A DNA stretch of 64,000 bases from Deltaproteobacteria bacterium HGW-Deltaproteobacteria-2 (GTDB taxonomy: Bacteria; Desulfobacterota; Syntrophia; Syntrophales; Smithellaceae): positions 829,738-893,737 of the forward strand of contig PHBC01000001.1 of NCBI GenBank assembly GCA_002840505.1. Direction: 5' to 3'. The translations under genes and the position numbers were made by a program. Positions 52,255 through 61,366 of the stretch are shown here, in pieces. How positions within the stretch are numbered: position 1 is the first letter of the stretch; every line of letters begins with the position of its first letter. The notes below the pieces were generated by a model. The model had not been told where the DNA came from and made no database searches. It saw only the letters and a program-made list of their open reading frames with translations.

Positions 52255-52700
52255 AATTACGAAACTTTCCCCGTCCCTTGCTTCCTGTTTTTGCTCTACT
52301 TTGCCGATTGACTTTGGCCATAATTTTTTTGTACTCCGGTATAGAAAAACTTTTTAATCCGGGCGATTTTGCCGTAGCCATTTATAACTATCGTCTGCTT
52401 CCGGACTATGTCATCAATTTTGTCGCCGTACTCCTACCGTGGTTGGAAGTTATCATAGCGATAAGCCTTATCAGCGGTACTAATACTCGAGGAGCCGCCT
52501 TGCTTTCCGCATTACTTTTTCTGACATTTGCCACAGCGTTGACGATCAACTTAATGCGAGGGTTGGATATTTCCTGTGGTTGTTTCGGAGCGTCTTCAGG
52601 AAATATAAATTGGTCTTATCTCGTGCGCGACTTTGCACTTTTCTGCATGTCTGTTTTTGTTATGATTTACGACCGGGGCTGGCGTTATTTCGTTGTTTAG
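52251..52700 (+). CDS. DoxX/MauE-family membrane protein
   Basis: 149 residues, four membrane helices. LCRLTLAIIFLYSGIEKLFNP is the DoxX-type start and DISCGCFGASSG near residue 105 carries the Cys pair that resembles MauE and vitamin-K-epoxide-reductase-like proteins. Such proteins help form disulfides or handle thiols in the membrane. Third gene of the operon, 15 bp from the convergent mutM. Confidence 0.75.
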   Translation: MKLRNFPRPLLPVFALLCRLTLAIIFLYSGIEKLFNPGDFAVAIYNYRLLPDYVINFVAVLLPWLEVIIAISLISGTNTRGAALLSALLFLTFATALTINLMRGLDISCGCFGASSGNINWSYLVRDFALFCMSVFVMIYDRGWRYFVV

Positions 52701-52714
52701 TTCTATCGAAAACG

Positions 52715-53488
52715 TTATTGTTGGCAATCGGGGCAATAAAAAGTGCTTCGTCCTCCCTGCTTTATACGGCAGATTGTCCCTCCGCACATTAAACAGCATT
52801 TTCCTTCACGTCCATAGGCTTTTAACTCATTTTGATTCTCGCCTTTACAGCCATACAGATCGCGCCAGTCGGAAATAGACGTCCCCCGCTTTTCAATCCC
52901 TTTTTTCAAAATGCTTTTAGCATGACTAAAAACTGTCTTCCATTCCTTTACAGATAAATTTGCGGCTTGTCTTAAAGGAGAAATCCCCGTGCGATATAAA
53001 ATCTCACAGGCGTAAATGTTGCCGATGCCGGCCACCGCCTTCGGGTCCATCAGCAGGACTTTAACATTGACCTTGCGTCTGGCCTGTTTCTCCAGAAATA
53101 TACCCTGATTAAAACCGGTGAGCAGGTCGTTGTCTACTTTCTCGTGCTTTGTCTTTTCGACGCTTACTGTGGCAAAGCGTCGCGGATCAACAAGAAAGAT
53201 ATCTCCTTCTTTAAAGGTTATTTTCCATCGGCTATGTTTCGGCCTTGCTGAACTGGATGACAAAAGCAGCCTTCCGGTCATCCTCAAATGTATCAGTATT
53301 GAATTCCCATCATCAAGATGAATGGCGATTGTCTTTCCCCGGCGTTCAACGGCAAGAATTCTCCTTCCCTGAACATTTCTCATCCCGTTCAATTTATCGT
53401 CGTAAACCTTTGAGGTTAGTATTACGCATCCGCAAATTTTCCTTTGCAGCTGACGACTCAGGGTTTCTACTTCCGGCAACTCCGGCAT
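52715..53488 (-). CDS. mutM: Formamidopyrimidine-DNA glycosylase
   Basis: 257 residues. MPELPEVE opening with catalytic Pro2 and Glu3, H2TH region (AVAGIGNIYACEILYRTGISPL), and a C-terminal zinc finger in which the cysteine pairs are CLMC and CPDC. Removes 8-oxoguanine and formamidopyrimidine from DNA and cleaves the strand. Slightly short compared with the usual 270 residues, but all sites are present. Monocistronic; converges on the DoxX/MauE gene. Confidence 0.93.
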   Translation of the reverse strand: MPELPEVETLSRQLQRKICGCVILTSKVYDDKLNGMRNVQGRRILAVERRGKTIAIHLDDGNSILIHLRMTGRLLLSSSSARPKHSRWKITFKEGDIFLVDPRRFATVSVEKTKHEKVDNDLLTGFNQGIFLEKQARRKVNVKVLLMDPKAVAGIGNIYACEILYRTGISPLRQAANLSVKEWKTVFSHAKSILKKGIEKRGTSISDWRDLYGCKGENQNELKAYGREGKCCLMCGGTICRIKQGGRSTFYCPDCQQ

Positions 53489-53812
53489 GGACGATCTCCA
53501 GATTAAAATTAAAATCGGTTCCCTTATTACTAAAAAGCATTCCGTTTGCCTACTTCTTTTTCTCTGGGAGAAATGTTTCCTCTAAAAATAATCGGATATA
53601 TTTTAAAATGCTGATACCTCTCTATTCCAGTATTGACGGGAGCTAGCGAATATTGATTCCATGATAAATATTTGCTTAAAATACTTCCGGCTGAGTCTGA
53701 TAAAAATGTTTTTCCCCACATTAATGCGCCAAAGAAAGCCGGTGGGGGATATTTTTGAGGAGACGCTATCAAATAATATTTTAATTTTTTCTGTCAATAA
53801 TGCAAAAAAGTG
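53489..53812. other. Intergenic region before kamA, nothing recognised
   Basis: About 320 bp between mutM and the kamA promoter. No convincing gene, and no lysine riboswitch architecture is apparent. Confidence 0.4.
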
Positions 53813-53840
53813 TTGACAAAAATTTTTGTATGAGTACATT
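53813..53840 (+). promoter_or_regulatory. Sigma-70-type promoter of the kamA cluster
   Basis: TTGACA (53813-53818), 16-bp spacer, TACATT (53835-53840). Leader of about 65 nt, then SD AAGGAGGAAC and ATG 53913. An additional SD-like AGGAGGGAG lies upstream in the leader. Confidence 0.6.
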
Positions 53841-53912
53841 CGTAAATTAAGAAGTAATTTTTTCATCACAGAATTATTTTACAGGAGGGAGACCTTCATC
53901 AAGGAGGAACAA

Positions 53913-55220
53913 ATGGAAAGCGAGACCCTGTTCAAAGAGGAGGAGGAACCTCCTGGTCATTTGACCGGTCTTGTTAATGCTAAAAATAATGTAAGTGACT
54001 TTTTGTTATTCAAAGAAGGGATTACCCCGTATTCGATTAAACAAAAGTCAGATAGCGTTTTATTTCCTTTTAAAGATTCCGCCCGCTCCCGTATCTTCCG
54101 AACACGACTTTATCCCGAAATCACCCGTCTGGAATGGTTCGATTGGCACTGGCAAATGCGTAACGCCATTAGGGATGTTGATACTCTTTCCGAAATAATT
54201 AATCTTTCGGACAATGAACGCCAGGCAATGATGCACCATTCCGGTGCTTTGCCCGTTTCCATTACTCCTTATTATGCCAGTTTGCTTAATCCCGATGATC
54301 CTTCGGATCCTCTGCGTCGTTGCGTTGTTCCCGTAGTGGATGAGTGCCTGCATACTGAAGGCGAAGAAGAAGATCCTCTCTGCGAGGATGTGGATTCTCC
54401 TGTGCCTGGCATTATTCATCGCTACCCTGACCGTGTTTTGTTTCTGGTAACTGATAGCTGCTCAACTTATTGTCGCTATTGCACCCGTTCCCGCATAATT
54501 GAACGAAGCAAACATCATTTAATAAGTTTGGAAAAATGGGAAAAGGCTATTCAATACATTGCCGGTAATAAGAATGTGCGAGACGTCCTGCTTTCCGGCG
54601 GCGATCCTTTAACCCTGTCCGATGAAAAACTGGAATGGCTATTAGCTAAATTGCACAAGATTTCTCATGTTGAACTTATCCGTATCGGTACAAAGGTGCC
54701 GGTTGTTTTGCCACAGAGAATAACGCCGGCTCTAACAGCTATGCTCAAAAAGTATCATCCTTTATGGATGAGTATCCATATTACCCATCCCAAAGAACTG
54801 ACTCCGGAGATGAGTGCCGCCTGCATTCGTCTGGCTGACGCCGGTATTCCACTGGGAAGCCAGACAGTTTTGCTTTCCGGTATTAATGATGACGTTGAAA
54901 CAATGACCAGGCTGGTGCATGGTCAATTACAAATCAGAATCCGTCCTTATTATCTGTATCAATGCGACCCTATTCCAGGCTCTTCTCACTTCCGGACCCC
55001 CATCAGCAAGGGCATTGAAATTATTCAGGGCATGCGCGGACATACCACTGGTTACGCTGTGCCTACTTATGTTGTCGACGCCCCCGGCGGCGGCGGCAAA
55101 ATTCCTTTACTTCCCGAATACGCCATTGGATGGGAGAACGGCGCCTTGCTGCTGCGCAATTACGAAGGCAATACCTTCCGCTACCCCGACAATCACGCAA
55201 AGTCTAAGGATATACATTAA
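53913..55220 (+). CDS. kamA: KamA-family lysine 2,3-aminomutase-like radical SAM protein
   Basis: 435 residues from ATG 53913, preceded by AAGGAGGAAC; a frame start at 53826 has no SD. Radical SAM cysteines in CSTYCRYCTRSR, followed by DVLLSGGDPLTLSDEKLEWLL, IRIRPYYLYQCDPIPGSSHFRTP and VPTYVVDAPGGGGKIP. The Asp in YQCD and the Asp in VVDAPGGGG align with the residues that bind the lysine epsilon-amino group in clostridial lysine 2,3-aminomutase, which favours lysine over glutamate; this is from memory and unverified. The C-terminal Zn-binding tail of clostridial enzymes is missing. PLP-dependent, makes beta-lysine. First gene of a cluster with two ATP-grasp ligases. Confidence 0.85.
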   Translation: MESETLFKEEEEPPGHLTGLVNAKNNVSDFLLFKEGITPYSIKQKSDSVLFPFKDSARSRIFRTRLYPEITRLEWFDWHWQMRNAIRDVDTLSEIINLSDNERQAMMHHSGALPVSITPYYASLLNPDDPSDPLRRCVVPVVDECLHTEGEEEDPLCEDVDSPVPGIIHRYPDRVLFLVTDSCSTYCRYCTRSRIIERSKHHLISLEKWEKAIQYIAGNKNVRDVLLSGGDPLTLSDEKLEWLLAKLHKISHVELIRIGTKVPVVLPQRITPALTAMLKKYHPLWMSIHITHPKELTPEMSAACIRLADAGIPLGSQTVLLSGINDDVETMTRLVHGQLQIRIRPYYLYQCDPIPGSSHFRTPISKGIEIIQGMRGHTTGYAVPTYVVDAPGGGGKIPLLPEYAIGWENGALLLRNYEGNTFRYPDNHAKSKDIH

Positions 55221-55257
55221 ATCGGCAGAATTTTTTCAGGGGGTAGATAGTTTAACT

Positions 55258-56256
55258 GTGGGTCGCGTCAGTAAGAAACTCAAAATCGGTCTCACCTATG
55301 ATCTGCGCGACGATTACCTGAAAGAAGGATACGGTCTCGAAGAAACTGCCGAATTCGACCTCCCCGACACAATCGAAGCTATCGAAAAAGTAATTTTTGA
55401 CAACGGCTTTATTGCTGATCGCATCGGCAACATAAAAGCGTTGACCCGCCGTCTTGCGGCAGATAATCGCTGGGATCTTGTTTTTAACATTGCCGAGGGA
55501 GTGCATGGCTTTGGCCGTGAAGCGCAGGTTCCCGCACTTCTGGAAGCATATAACATCCCGTATACTTTTTCCGATCCCCTTGGCCACGCCGTTTCTCTTC
55601 ACAAAGGCATTACAAAACAGATTCTGCGCGATCTGGGAATTCCCACGCCTGACTTTGCCATAATTAACAATGCAAAAGATATTGAAAAGGTTACTCTTCC
55701 TTTTCCACTTTTTGCCAAACCGGTGGCGGAAGGAACGGGCAAGGGTATAACGGCGCTTTCCAAAATAACTACTCGTAAAAATCTGCAAAAAGTCTGCAGG
55801 CAGCTTTTAAAGACTTTTCAGCAACCGGTTCTGGTCGAAACATATCTTCCCGGACGCGAATTCACCGTGGGAATTCTGGGAACAGGAAAGGATGCCCGTG
55901 TCCTGGGAGCACTGGAAGTAATTCTGAAGCCCAACGCGGAAAAGAACGCTTATTCTTACGAAAATAAAGAACACTATGATAAACTGGTCCAGTATGTTCT
56001 GGCCAACGATGATGAAGCCCAAAAAGCCATGGAAATCTCCCTGATGGCTTGGCGCGGACTGGATTTAAAAGATGCCGGACGCATTGATTTGCGCTCCAAT
56101 GTTCATGGTGTTCCTCATTTCATGGAAGTCAATTCCCTTGCCGGACTTAATCCCGTGCGGTCTGATTTGCCCATTTTGTGTTCTAAAATAGGAATGAGCT
56201 ATCATAAATTGATAAGTTCCATTATTAAGTCAGCCCTAAAGCGCACGAAAAAATAA
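55258..56256 (+). CDS. ATP-grasp ligase, D-alanine-D-alanine ligase-like (1)
   Basis: 332 residues from GTG 55258; frames reaching further upstream run into kamA and are not credible. ATP-grasp fold with RWDLVFNIAEGVHGFGREAQVPALLEAY, FPLFAKPVAEGTGKGI, VETYLPGREFTVGILG and GRIDLRSNVHGVPHFMEVNSLAGLNP, which matches the Ddl superfamily. The serpentine HGxxGE loop of true Ddl reads EGVHGFGRE, so it need not use D-Ala. Probably joins a carboxylate to an amino group with ATP. It begins 37 bp after kamA and is followed by a second ATP-grasp gene. Confidence 0.8.
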   Translation: MGRVSKKLKIGLTYDLRDDYLKEGYGLEETAEFDLPDTIEAIEKVIFDNGFIADRIGNIKALTRRLAADNRWDLVFNIAEGVHGFGREAQVPALLEAYNIPYTFSDPLGHAVSLHKGITKQILRDLGIPTPDFAIINNAKDIEKVTLPFPLFAKPVAEGTGKGITALSKITTRKNLQKVCRQLLKTFQQPVLVETYLPGREFTVGILGTGKDARVLGALEVILKPNAEKNAYSYENKEHYDKLVQYVLANDDEAQKAMEISLMAWRGLDLKDAGRIDLRSNVHGVPHFMEVNSLAGLNPVRSDLPILCSKIGMSYHKLISSIIKSALKRTKK

Positions 56257-56283
56257 TTATCCATAAATGCCGGTGAAATAAAA

Positions 56284-57279
56284 TTGAAGAAAAAAATATT
56301 AATTTTGCACAGTGATATTTCGCCGGATGCCAGCCAAGACGAACTTGATTGCCTTGAGCAGGCCGAAGCTATAGCCCAAGCTCTGTGCACACTTCATTAC
56401 GAACCCATTCTTCTGCCTTTTGAACTCAATTTAAATCATACAATAACGATGCTGCAATCATTAAAACCTTTGGCTGTTTTCAACATTGTGGAAACTCTGG
56501 ACTCCAAAGGCAATCTGATTCATTTTGCGCCTGCTTTACTTGATTCTTTAAAGATTTCTTATACCGGTTGTCCAACGCAAGCTGTTTTTCAGACATCCAA
56601 TAAACCTCTATCCAAGAAAATCATGCATTCTGCCGGGATTGCCACTCCGGACTGGATAGAGCAGGATGGTTTCAGTTCTCAACAAGAAATTTCCGGGCAC
56701 TATTTAATCAAGTCTTCCTGGGAACATGCCTCCATAGGCCTCGATGAAAACTCGCTCATCATCTACACAAACAAAGCGAAGATATTACAAGAAATGAAAC
56801 GCCGCGAAGAAAAACTTGGCGGCTTCTGTTATGCCGAAGCTTATATTGACGGCCGTGAATTCAATGTCGCGCTAATATCAGATAGGGCTGGCGTCAAAGT
56901 ATTACCAATAGCTGAAATGTTGTTTCAGGATTACGCACCGGACAAATTGAAAATAGTTGATTACAAAGCTAAATGGGACGCGGATTCTTTTGAATACAAC
57001 AATACGATAAGAAAATTTGATTTTGATGACGACGATGCCCCGTTAATATCGTCTTTGAGTGAAATTTCTCTGCAGTGCTGGAATATTTTTTCCCTGCGCG
57101 GTTACGCACGCGTTGATTTTCGTGTTGATAACAACGGCAAGCCCTGGGTACTTGAAATAAATACCAATCCATGCTTATCTCCCGACGCTGGTTTTGCCGC
57201 AGCACTTGCGCAAGCCAATATAAAATATCACGAAGCTATCGGTTTGATACTTGATAATGCATTAAAATCAAGGGCATGA
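56284..57279 (+). CDS. ATP-grasp ligase, D-alanine-D-alanine ligase-like (2)
   Basis: 331 residues from TTG 56284; the SD is weak. N-terminal ILILHSDISPDASQDELDCLEQAEAIAQALC, ATP-grasp residues in YLIKSSWEHASIGLDENS and EAYIDGREFNVALISDRAG, and the metal/phosphate site GYARVDFRVDNNGKPWVLEINTNPCLSPDAGF. Distant paralogue of the previous gene, with different acceptor loops. Two different ATP-grasp ligases in tandem suggest two successive amide or peptide bonds. Its stop codon lies in the left arm of a 11-bp hairpin (57271-57310). Confidence 0.8.
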   Translation: MKKKILILHSDISPDASQDELDCLEQAEAIAQALCTLHYEPILLPFELNLNHTITMLQSLKPLAVFNIVETLDSKGNLIHFAPALLDSLKISYTGCPTQAVFQTSNKPLSKKIMHSAGIATPDWIEQDGFSSQQEISGHYLIKSSWEHASIGLDENSLIIYTNKAKILQEMKRREEKLGGFCYAEAYIDGREFNVALISDRAGVKVLPIAEMLFQDYAPDKLKIVDYKAKWDADSFEYNNTIRKFDFDDDDAPLISSLSEISLQCWNIFSLRGYARVDFRVDNNGKPWVLEINTNPCLSPDAGFAAALAQANIKYHEAIGLILDNALKSRA

Positions 57280-57310
57280 ATTCCAACGCAAGCATTGTGA
57301 TTCATGCCCT
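57271..57310 (+). terminator. Hairpin at the 3' end of the second ligase gene
   Basis: AGGGCATGAAT (57271-57281) and ATTCATGCCCT (57300-57310) form a perfect 11-bp stem with an 18-nt loop. No T-run follows. It may attenuate transcription or stabilise the upstream mRNA, and it splits the cluster into two possible units. Confidence 0.5.
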
Positions 57311-57401
57311 CCGCTATGCGTGATAATTTGACCTGCAAGCTTCCGTGCACTCTGCTTCTGGAGCTTGGGTCTCATTAATTTTTTAAGGAGATTTTAATTC
57401 T

Positions 57402-57749
57402 GTGTTAAGAACCATTGTATTTCTTTTCTTTTCCAATTTATTTATGACCTTCGCCTGGTATGGACATTTAAAAAATTTTAACAGCAAACCTTTATTGTTT
57501 GTTATATTTTTCAGTTGGGGTATAGCTTTCTTTGAATACGTTTTGCAGGTACCCGCCAATAGAATAGGATTTCAATATTACAGTCTGGGACAGCTCAAAA
57601 TTATTCAGGAAGTTATCACAATGATTGTTTTTGCCGGTTTTGCGATTATGTACATGAAACAACCTTTGAAGCTGGATTTTCTCTGGGCGGGACTTTGTCT
57701 TGTCGGCGCGGTTTACTTCATGTTTCGAGAGGGATTGCCTCAATCTTAA
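57402..57749 (+). CDS. DUF486/DMT-family small membrane protein
   Basis: 115 residues from GTG 57402 with SD AAGGAG. Four helices with the DUF486 opening LFFSNLFMTFAWYGHLK and YSLGQLKIIQEVITMIVFAGFAIMYMKQPLKLDFLWAGLCLVGAVYF. Related to small drug/metabolite transporters. If the cluster makes a small molecule, this could carry it; that is speculation from position. 7 bp before the GNAT gene. Confidence 0.8.
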   Translation: MLRTIVFLFFSNLFMTFAWYGHLKNFNSKPLLFVIFFSWGIAFFEYVLQVPANRIGFQYYSLGQLKIIQEVITMIVFAGFAIMYMKQPLKLDFLWAGLCLVGAVYFMFREGLPQS

Positions 57750-57755
57750 TATTTT

Positions 57756-58238
57756 ATGAAAAATTTTACCTATCGTCAACAGATTCAGCCTTCGGATATC
57801 GGAGCCATTGCCGATATCGTAAAATCAAGCGGCTTTTTTTCCGACGAGGAGGTAGCAATAGCCATAGAACTGGCTGAAGAAAAGCTGGAAAAGCAGGAAG
57901 CCAGCTCTTACCGGTTTTTATTTGCCGAAAATAAAAATCGTGTCATCGGATATGCATGTTATGGCCTCATTCCCGCAACCTCTTCCAGTTACGACATTTA
58001 TTGGATCGCCGTCCACAAAACCATGATCGGCAAGGGACTGGGCAAGCTTCTTTTGGCCGAAACCGAAAAATTCATTTACCAGAGTGGCGGCAGACAGGTT
58101 TATGCAGAAACATCATCAAGAGACCAGTACAAACCAACCCATGGTTTTTATGAGAACTGCGGTTATCGAAAAGAAGCTTTCTTGAAAGATTTTTATACGG
58201 AAGGCGACAGCAAAATTATATACGCAAAAACTCTTTAA
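57756..58238 (+). CDS. GNAT-family acetyltransferase of the kamA cluster
   Basis: 160 residues. Acetyl-CoA binding core IYWIAVHKTMIGKGLGKLLLAETEKFI, ETSSRDQYKPTHGFYENCGYRKEA and conserved FAENKNRVIGYACYG. Too short and too different to be the beta-lysine N6-acetyltransferase AblB, which is about 270 residues. It lies with the kamA genes and so may acetylate a product of that pathway. No SD is obvious. Confidence 0.75.
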   Translation: MKNFTYRQQIQPSDIGAIADIVKSSGFFSDEEVAIAIELAEEKLEKQEASSYRFLFAENKNRVIGYACYGLIPATSSSYDIYWIAVHKTMIGKGLGKLLLAETEKFIYQSGGRQVYAETSSRDQYKPTHGFYENCGYRKEAFLKDFYTEGDSKIIYAKTL

Positions 58239-58381
58239 TAACATATAGTAAGCCCTCAAAACGAAAATGTCATGCTTTAAAACAACTTGCATTTTTTTTC
58301 AAAATTCGCTAGAGCACTGCCAGCATTTTTATAACGTTTTAACAACATTAATTTATTACGGAACGCAAGGAGGATTTTCTC

Positions 58382-59002
58382 ATGCGCTTGTTCCCTAAAG
58401 AAGAAAATTTTTTTGAACTTTTTGAAGAACTTGCTGATAAAATTGAAGAAGGCGGCAAGCTTTTTCTGGAAATGGCTCAAACCAGGGATTATTCCGACGT
58501 AAGAGTTGCCAAACTCAAAGAAGTTGAGCATGAGGCTGACGGCATTACCCATAAAACATACGAAAAAATGCACAAAACATTTCTCACGCCCATAGATCGA
58601 GAAGATATTTATGCGCTAGTTAACAAAATGGACAGTATTATGGACGTCATCGAAGCTACCGCTGTCCGTATTCATCTTTATAAAGTCAAAAGAACATCCG
58701 ATGAAATAATCAAACAGGCTCAAATTCTGAACGACGCTATAAAGAAAGTAAAAAGCATTGTTCACGCCATGCGCAATATGAAAAACTCCGCAATGATTCT
58801 GGCGGATTGCGTGGAAATTAACACACTGGAAAATGCCGGTGACATTACTTTAAGATCCATCATGGCTAATCTTTTCGAAACCGAAAAAGACGCCATTGAA
58901 CTTATAAAGTGGAAAGATATTTTTCAACTCCTGGAAGAAGCAATTGACGTTTGTGAAGATGTATCCAACATCGTTGAAGGGATTGTCCTGAAACATGCTT
59001 GA
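58382..59002 (+). CDS. DUF47 PhoU-like protein, phosphate transporter accessory
   Basis: 206 residues, all helical, with EVEHEADGITHKTYEKMHKTFLTPIDREDIYALVNKMDSIMDVIEATAVRIHL, characteristic of DUF47. Often coupled to PiT transporters and thought to control them. SD AAGGAGG before ATG. The PiT gene begins inside its stop (58995-59002). Confidence 0.88.
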   Translation: MRLFPKEENFFELFEELADKIEEGGKLFLEMAQTRDYSDVRVAKLKEVEHEADGITHKTYEKMHKTFLTPIDREDIYALVNKMDSIMDVIEATAVRIHLYKVKRTSDEIIKQAQILNDAIKKVKSIVHAMRNMKNSAMILADCVEINTLENAGDITLRSIMANLFETEKDAIELIKWKDIFQLLEEAIDVCEDVSNIVEGIVLKHA

Positions 59003-60100: not shown

Positions 60101-61366
60101 ATGTCTCAAAAGCTATTGCCTTTTACCAAAAACCAAATCGAAAAAATAATAAAACAATATCCGACGCCTTTTCATCTTTACGACGAAAAAGCTATTCGGG
60201 AAAACGCGCGCGCCTTTAAGAACGCTTTTAACTGGAATAAAGGTTTTAAAGAATTTTACGCTATCAAAGCCGCCCCCAATCCCTATTTGATGAAAATCCT
60301 GCATAAGGAAGGCTATGGCGCTGATTGCAGTTCACTGGCCGAACTGATTATGGCGCAAAAAACCGGTGTAACCGGTGAAGAAATCATGTTTTCTTCCAAC
60401 GACACGCCCGTGGAAGATTTTCTACTGGCCAAAAAATTAAAAGCCATCATCAACTTGGACGATATCAGCCACATTGCCTATCTCGAAAAATGCGCCGGAC
60501 TCCCTTCTTTGATTTGCTTCCGCTACAATCCCGGCAAGTTGAAAAAAGGTAACCATATTATCGGCCACCCTGAAGAAGCAAAATACGGCTTCACCAGAGA
60601 ACAGCTTTTTGAAGGCTATAAAATTTGCAAAGAAAAAGGCGTTAAACGATTCGGCATTCATACCATGGTCGCCTCCAACGAACTCGATGCCTATTATTTT
60701 GAAGAAACCGCTGAAATATTGTTTCAACTTGTAGCGGAAATTTCACAAAAGCTGAAAATCAAATTTGAATTTGTCAATATCGGCGGGGGAGTGGGCATAC
60801 CTTACCGGCCGGAACAAAAACGCATTGACCTTAAAGTAATGAGCCACGGCATCAAGAAACAATACGAAAAAATTATTGTTGCCAACGGCCTTGCCCCACT
60901 GAAGCTTTTTACGGAATGCGGCCGATATATCACCGGCCCTTATGGTTATCTAGTCTCACGTGTTTTGCATATTAAAGACACTTATAAAAAATTCGCCGGC
61001 TTGGATTCCTGCATGGCCAACCTGATGCGTCCCGCTCTTTACGGCGCGTATCATCATATAACTGTAATGGGTAAAGAAAATAAACCTCGTAATGTTGTTT
61101 ATGATGTCACCGGCTCGCTTTGTGAAAACAATGATAAATTCGCTATCGATCGCAAACTTCCCAAACTCGACCAGGGTGATATCATAGTAATTCATGACGC
61201 CGGCGCTCATGGATTTGCCATGGGCTTTAATTACAACGGCAAGCTTCGCTCAGCAGAACTACTTTTAAGAGCAAACGGCGACGTTGTGCAAATCCGCCGT
61301 TCTGAAACAGTCAAAGACTACTTTGCTACTTTAGATTTCAACGGTTTGACTGACTTTAGGGTGTAA
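60101..61366 (+). CDS. lysA: Diaminopimelate decarboxylase-like PLP enzyme
   Basis: 421 residues, fold type III. PLP lysine in FYAIKAAPNPYL, GGGVGIPYRPE for the phosphate, ECGRYITGPYGYLVSRV, and CENNDKFA with HDAGAHGFAMGFNYNG near the end. These fit diaminopimelate decarboxylase of the longer, ENNDKFA-containing group; carboxynorspermidine or ornithine decarboxylases are alternatives. It would make lysine, the presumed substrate of the KamA encoded 5 kb upstream. SD GGAGAG. No other lysine genes are here. Confidence 0.75.
   Translation: MSQKLLPFTKNQIEKIIKQYPTPFHLYDEKAIRENARAFKNAFNWNKGFKEFYAIKAAPNPYLMKILHKEGYGADCSSLAELIMAQKTGVTGEEIMFSSNDTPVEDFLLAKKLKAIINLDDISHIAYLEKCAGLPSLICFRYNPGKLKKGNHIIGHPEEAKYGFTREQLFEGYKICKEKGVKRFGIHTMVASNELDAYYFEETAEILFQLVAEISQKLKIKFEFVNIGGGVGIPYRPEQKRIDLKVMSHGIKKQYEKIIVANGLAPLKLFTECGRYITGPYGYLVSRVLHIKDTYKKFAGLDSCMANLMRPALYGAYHHITVMGKENKPRNVVYDVTGSLCENNDKFAIDRKLPKLDQGDIIVIHDAGAHGFAMGFNYNGKLRSAELLLRANGDVVQIRRSETVKDYFATLDFNGLTDFRV

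Follow-up and report, generated by a model that had tools for sequence, protein, structure and literature searches.

A four-gene cassette found in many anaerobic relatives of Deltaproteobacteria bacterium HGW-Deltaproteobacteria-2 appears to produce beta-lysine, an unusual amino acid, and to couple it to other molecules, pointing to a small molecule of an uncharacterised kind. One copy lies in the window analysed here, a 64,000-nucleotide stretch of contig PHBC01000001.1 from that bacterium (assembly GCA_002840505.1). The cassette consists of kamA, which encodes a lysine 2,3-aminomutase family enzyme, two genes for ATP-grasp ligases with the fold of D-alanine-D-alanine ligase (Ddl), termed ATG1 and ATG2, and a gene for a GNAT N-acetyltransferase. 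It is read, with a probability of roughly 0.6, as a pathway in which amide ligases build a small compound that contains beta-lysine. Synthesis of peptides or amides by ATP-grasp enzymes is a known kind of biochemistry, and here it would be built on beta-lysine. The reading draws on gene identities, the pairing and order of the genes, gene fusions, residue conservation, and the distinctness of the proteins from AblB, from Ddl, and from the KamA that is linked to elongation factor P (EF-P).

A first-pass annotation had placed kamA, two ATP-grasp genes, a small DUF486 membrane protein gene, and a GNAT gene in this part of the window and suggested that the set could build and export or acetylate a beta-lysine compound. 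All five genes were confirmed at those places on the + strand. Its interpretation as a whole is partly supported: at the level of compound class, a beta-lysine derivative that is both ligated and acetylated fits best, and a dedicated export role for DUF486, which is patchily distributed, is not supported.

Conservation of the cassette

The cassette was surveyed in 297 genomes, one sample of one phylum. With an ATG1 profile, 107 genomes matched at E ≤ 1e-40, and close relatives (E ≤ 1e-100) occurred at 63 loci in 62 genomes. Within 8 kb of these 63 loci, ATG2 was found at 59, kamA at a minimum of 58, and both at a minimum of 54; at three of the four loci without ATG2, the contig ends fewer than 300 bases away on the ATG2 side. 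Both partners were also near at least 10 of 11 loci in the next tier (1e-80 to 1e-99) and at least 12 of 35 in the weakest (1e-40 to 1e-79). Of 113 ATG1 rows, 109 entered these counts, as four duplicated a place already represented; for KamA and ATG2 the stronger rows alone were used, and the figures for adjacent kamA are minimum values. In genome G074, an ATG2 6.6 kb away was scored as near. The genome survey, which the first-pass annotation had itself proposed, thus contradicts the idea that the block is not conserved.

Gene order is regular as well. Wider regions were obtained for 60 of the 109 ATG1 places, picked from strong to weak, and 43 loci among L054-L095 and L136 had an ATG1 match. 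Of the 37 uncut loci drawn from these, 35 have kamA upstream on the same strand, 35 have ATG2 downstream, 33 have a GNAT gene, and nine have a deacetylase gene nearby. Gene calls in retrieved regions came from a simple caller of our own, which overlooked some genes, among them that of the L069 deacetylase. A separate contig scan with ATG2, which detects close relatives only, returned 15 loci; ATG1 and GNAT are present in all of them and kamA in 14, the exception being L020, where the contig ends inside ATG1.

All 107 genomes that matched the ATG1 profile at E ≤ 1e-40 encode a KamA, any kind being counted, compared with 101 of the 190 other genomes (Fisher p = 2e-22, with kinship ignored). Distances among the four proteins correlate over 30 loci, with r of 0.62-0.84 and none of 999 permutations as high, a correlation that shared species history could also yield. 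Searches of plasmid and phage proteins gave no match that reached 60% identity. Judged by these comparisons, conservation of the cassette is well beyond chance and is no local accident.

The two ATP-grasp ligases

The ligases are divergent both from each other and from ordinary Ddl. ATG1 and ATG2 are ∼25% identical, with a profile-profile match probability of 99.6, and the first-pass description of two different Ddl-like enzymes directly after kamA can be extended to a conserved pair. Against the Ddl model TIGR01205 (cut-off 245.65 bits) they score 121.8 and 86.4 bits, respectively, and both fall below every Ddl and Van cut-off among the matches listed (25 of 38 for ATG1; all 22 for ATG2). The ATP and metal positions Lys144, Arg255, Asp257, Glu270, and Asn272 are invariant in 57 of 57 ATG1 sequences and, save for one Asp at Glu270, in 50 ATG2 sequences.

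The positions presumed to govern substrate choice in Ddl are E32 for the donor amine, Tyr216 for specificity, and the Ser281-Leu282 pair for the acceptor carboxylate. ATG1 keeps the donor-amine glutamate in all 57 sequences and serine at the Ser281 position in 53, and the Tyr216 position holds Glu in 39 and other non-Tyr letters in 17, with one not read. In ATG2, all 50 sequences carry Trp at the Tyr216 position together with an invariant Asn-Pro-Cys motif, and the Ser281-Leu282 pair is not kept. This pattern of kept and lost residues plausibly means that the acceptor of ATG1 carries a free carboxylate and that the acceptor of ATG2 is something else.

An AlphaFold model of ATG2 (pLDDT 71) retrieved Ddl structures as top matches (TM ∼0.5-0.6, rmsd 8-10.5); the ATG1 model, at pLDDT 62, was of low quality and was set aside. 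In a ligase tree, ATG1 and ATG2 stand apart, and a second version of the pair, termed 1b and 2b, lies nearby without forming clean groups. ATG1 and ATG2 are best described as a conserved, divergent pair of putative Ddl-fold amide ligases that do not resemble D-Ala-D-Ala ligases.

KamA and its other copies

KamA, a radical S-adenosylmethionine (SAM) enzyme dependent on pyridoxal 5′-phosphate (PLP), aligns with the lysine 2,3-aminomutase structure 2a5h at E 9.9e-136 over 365 residues. The alignment bears out the earlier remark that the residues expected for lysine are kept: the positions of R134, D293, D330, and K337, which we take to bind lysine and PLP, are all conserved. Seven site columns, including the radical SAM CxxxCxxC motif, the PLP lysine, an Asp pair, and an Arg, are invariant in 78 of 78 KamA sequences, whether from a cassette or not. 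The protein is extended at its N terminus and shortened in its C-terminal domain, with 60 of 127 LAM_C positions matched. It exceeds the cut-off of the broader KamA model TIGR00238 (356.4 versus 199.2 bits) and falls below those of the AblA equivalog TIGR03820 (498 versus 525.4) and of EpmB (263.2 versus 369.3); models for glutamate and arginine mutases gave lower scores, far under their cut-offs. The cassette KamA is accordingly classed as lysine-type, and formation of beta-lysine is predicted from its residues.

A quick tree of the 78 sequences, made without bootstrap, places 47 cassette KamA and one stray copy on one branch. Three AblB-linked KamA occupy a branch of their own, and two or more additional branches also contain KamA linked to ligases. 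The host genome (G000; 3.28 Mb in 11 contigs) encodes a second KamA (L147:804-2523; contig C5, ∼29.1-30.1 kb) that lies 67 bases before an EF-P gene. The two likely form an EF-P modification pair, though the score stays below the cut-off of the EpmB model. A pyruvoyl-dependent arginine decarboxylase (PvlArgDC) is encoded within 9 kb of this EF-P-linked KamA (G000 C5, ∼29-38 kb).

The acetyltransferase, gene fusions, and a deacetylase partner

The cassette GNAT was said in the first pass not to be AblB, and its scores agree: 20.6 bits against the AblB model (cut-off 205.1) and 48.5 against that of RimI (cut-off 86.4). ATG2 and GNAT are fused in six loci belonging to six family codes (L068, L078, L081, L083, L091, and L136).

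Several cassettes additionally encode a protein with both GNAT and histone-deacetylase-family domains (10 of 75 loci, plus L142), in eight of those ten between ATG2 and GNAT. Where the gene was read, this is one protein of ∼550-600 residues, and in L084 and L142 an extra GNAT is attached. Pfam confirms both domains in L072, L084, L091, and L142; the remainder were identified by tblastn. In L072, the deacetylase domain has acetylpolyamine amidohydrolase as its closest match (E 1.1e-70), and the His-His and Asp/His positions, presumably the functional residues, are invariant in 10 of 10 aligned sequences. The fusion suggests that acetylation is reversible in some species. This protein, along with the arginine decarboxylase and agmatinase genes of related loci, goes beyond what the first-pass annotation described.

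Outside the cassette, the host genome encodes a deacetylase-family protein that shares only 29% identity with its counterpart in the fusion. At C1:166258-166899 on the - strand (L144/L145), a histone-deacetylase-family match is split in two and may be a broken gene. In family f42, an amidohydrolase gene follows the cassette GNAT (L094:8245-9828 and L095:3347-4927); its product could cleave the compound made.

Proposed pathway

In the pathway proposed here, KamA would convert L-lysine to beta-lysine. ATG1 and ATG2 would then each spend ATP on a single amide bond, formed by way of an acyl-phosphate as in Ddl, so that beta-lysine is joined to one partner or two. Acetylation by the GNAT would fall on an amine group of either the substrate or the product, the epsilon-amine being the simplest choice, and could come before or after ligation. 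Where the GNAT-deacetylase is present, it would reverse this acetylation, so that the acetyl group may act as a protecting group during ligation or its removal may serve to recycle the product. The KamA step is proposed from residue evidence and the later steps from gene association. The product may be a compatible solute or another soluble metabolite. It is best read as a small peptide or amide of beta-lysine, possibly a polyamine conjugate, whose acetylation would be reversible in some species; links to agmatinase and arginine decarboxylase and the type of deacetylase suggest the polyamine. A bolder version, in which twin ligases join beta-lysine to a polyamine or amino acid and the same operon adds, and in some species removes, an acetyl group, would define an undescribed metabolite class and is put forward only tentatively, as a rather doubtful proposal.

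Several observations weigh against a beta-lysine amide-ligase pathway. All of the evidence is comparative, and substrate and product are predicted. The lysine-type residues of KamA are shared by AblB-linked KamA and are therefore no marker of a ligase pathway. The donor-amine glutamate is kept in only 33 of 50 ATG2 sequences. Among the 37 uncut loci, upstream kamA is absent from two, atg2 from two, and GNAT from four, and most loci, the window's included, have no deacetylase in the operon. Four 1b/2b loci that carry arginine decarboxylase have kamA elsewhere in the genome, and some versions of the system may thus act on a substrate other than beta-lysine; in the ten genomes of this kind whose kamA was retrieved (L123-L132), kamA likewise lies apart, in one of them on the same contig, ∼44 kb away.

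Alternative explanations and known systems

The alternative that survives best, though still an unlikely one, is that beta-lysine or another amino acid is conjugated to a polyamine, a ligase adding putrescine, agmatine, or spermidine while the acetyltransferase and deacetylase tune charge. A PvlArgDC gene lies upstream of the 1b/2b ligase pair in four of 75 loci (L103, L107, L108, and L109), three of which also have an adjoining agmatinase; agmatinase is found ∼4 kb from the pair in L062, and in L060 the cassette GNAT is fused to an agmatinase that scores above its family cut-off. The affinity of the deacetylase domain to acetylpolyamine amidohydrolase and the missing acceptor-carboxylate pair of ATG2 fit as well, as do PvlArgDC and agmatinase genes in the host genome. 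However, those host genes are on contigs other than that of the cassette, and neighbouring genes may merely share regulation. The arginine decarboxylase adjoins the ligase pair only in the four loci where kamA is elsewhere, and seven other 1b/2b loci with adjacent kamA, which is upstream in L104-L106 and L111 and downstream in L110, L137, and L142, have none. A PvlArgDC relative (54% identity) also occurs at L133:230-775 in genome G295, ∼3.4 kb from a cassette-branch kamA without an adjoining ligase.

A known fate of free beta-lysine is acetylation, by the KamA-AblB route to N-epsilon-acetyl-beta-lysine of methanogens. For Pelobacter carbinolicus, synthesis of this osmolyte by kamA-ablB has been proposed (PMC3543383). 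Like the cassette, the kamA-ablB operon combines lysine 2,3-aminomutase with a GNAT, and the cassette GNAT might simply replace AblB to give acetyl-beta-lysine, the more so as the host genome has no AblB match. This is improbable. Unlike that operon, the cassette has two ATP-grasp ligases between the two genes, about as conserved as kamA itself, and its KamA is on another branch; the GNAT is far from AblB in score and fused to ATG2 in some loci, and genomes G178 and G280 carry kamA-ablB plus the ligase system. Across the sample, the AblB model gave matches at E ≤ 0.001 in 36 genomes, and at least eight of those that passed its cut-off have an adjoining KamA.

Beta-lysine is also attached to protein, as in the modification of EF-P by EpmA and EpmB, in which a KamA family enzyme likewise makes the beta-lysyl group. 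A similar role for the cassette, acting on a protein or other macromolecule, would draw on this kinship of KamA and on the capacity of some ATP-grasp enzymes, such as those of RimK type, to modify proteins, yet it is very hard to credit. It is the other KamA copy that neighbours EF-P in the host genome, the ligases are of the Ddl type that acts on small substrates, and no gene cluster other than the cassette itself is shared by more than 11 of 71 loci.

That KamA instead opens lysine fermentation, of which it is the first step, with the ligases as ordinary cell-wall Ddl copies, a possibility raised in the first pass, is next to impossible as a whole, and its Ddl part was rejected, since a typical ddl lies on another contig of the host genome (E 3.2e-74) and the ligases score far under Ddl cut-offs with changed specificity residues. 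A search of the host genome for lysine 5,6-aminomutase found no match, but control genomes gave none either, so this shows little.

Other systems share single features with the beta-lysine cassette. Ddl and Van ligases resemble ATG1 and ATG2 in fold, in ATP and metal residues, and presumably in acyl-phosphate chemistry, whereas the cassette combines two distinct ligase types with KamA, and the Tyr216 position is mostly Glu in ATG1 and Trp in ATG2. Synthesis of N-acetylglutaminylglutamine amide uses a GNAT-ATP-grasp fusion along with an amidotransferase resembling asparagine synthetase, and so likewise brings together an amide ligase and a GNAT, fused in some cassette members; unlike that system, the cassette has two Ddl-type ligases and KamA. 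In Thioflavicoccus mobilis, plasmid pTHIMO01 (L116) carries KamA beside a Ddl-like ATP-grasp enzyme, but has a single ligase, ∼30% identical to ATG1, and genes annotated for diaminobutyrate/diaminopropionate synthesis. The T. mobilis cluster is another candidate for a beta-amino-acid product. Three rhizobial plasmids with KamA offer a lead only: an ATP-grasp-type gene is near in two (L117, annotated as of biotin-carboxylase kind, and L118), and none is listed in the third. The remaining KamA plasmid neighbourhoods that were opened list no ATP-grasp ligase gene beside KamA, and no KamA is listed in the neighbourhood of the NGR234 ATP-grasp gene.

An open-access literature search found no recognised account of the cassette; the nearest statement was the one on kamA-ablB in P. 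carbinolicus. A survey of ATP-grasp amidoligases by Iyer et al. in 2009, which reportedly may mention such neighbourhoods, lay outside that search, leaving priority unsettled.

Genes of the locus and local neighbours

The genes of the locus are listed in Table 1. Successive gaps from kamA to GNAT are 37, 27, 122, and 6 bases, and downstream of GNAT come genes for DUF47 and a phosphate permease, then lysA. Judged by ATG2, the closest relative that bears a name is a Smithella record (92% identity), and such relatives are placed in Thermodesulfobacteriota. An Rfam scan of positions 52600-58500 gave no matches at gathering score, and promoter and terminator scans of the locus gave results near chance.

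Table 1. Protein-coding genes of the cassette and its surroundings, in window coordinates
Gene	Product	Position	Strand	Supporting match
kamA	Lysine 2,3-aminomutase family (radical SAM, PLP), 435 aa	53913..55220	+	Pfam LAM_C and Radical_SAM
ATG1	Divergent Ddl-fold ATP-grasp ligase, 332 aa, GTG start	55258..56256	+	Dala_Dala_lig_C, E 1.3e-26
ATG2	Second Ddl-fold ATP-grasp ligase, 331 aa, TTG start	56284..57279	+	Dala_Dala_lig_C, E 9.6e-16
DUF486 (DMT_6)	Small membrane protein, variable passenger	57402..57749	+	Pfam, E 8.5e-46
GNAT	N-acetyltransferase of the cassette, not AblB	57756..58238	+	Acetyltransf_1, E 5.1e-12
lysA-like	Diaminopimelate decarboxylase, neighbour	60101..61366	+	TIGR01048, 301.6 bits (cut-off 297.9)

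Two neighbours were considered as pathway genes and rejected. DUF486 is present in five of the 15 near-relative loci, in one as a 38-residue fragment, and this patchy presence disqualifies it as a core exporter. The lysA-like gene stands where the first-pass annotation had put it, but a tie to the pathway is not supported: it is near the cassette in 13 of the 15 near relatives, in L016 and L021 directly after GNAT without DUF47 and the permease, and in only 11 of 71 wider loci, all of them Smithella-like. As the host genome's only lysA match, it is probably a housekeeping gene.

Biological significance

Should a peptide or amide of beta-lysine be the product of the cassette, its hosts would contain a metabolite so far unrecognised, which may be a compatible solute, and the presence of KamA by itself should not be taken as a sign of acetyl-beta-lysine synthesis or lysine fermentation. 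AblB scores above its cut-off in nine of the 297 genomes, compared with 62 that have a close ATG1 relative. The cassette offers a defined four-gene target for heterologous expression. Were the undescribed class of conjugates real, it would add a further use of beta-lysine beside free acetyl-beta-lysine and EF-P, one that in the sampled phylum would be commoner than the kamA-ablB operon.

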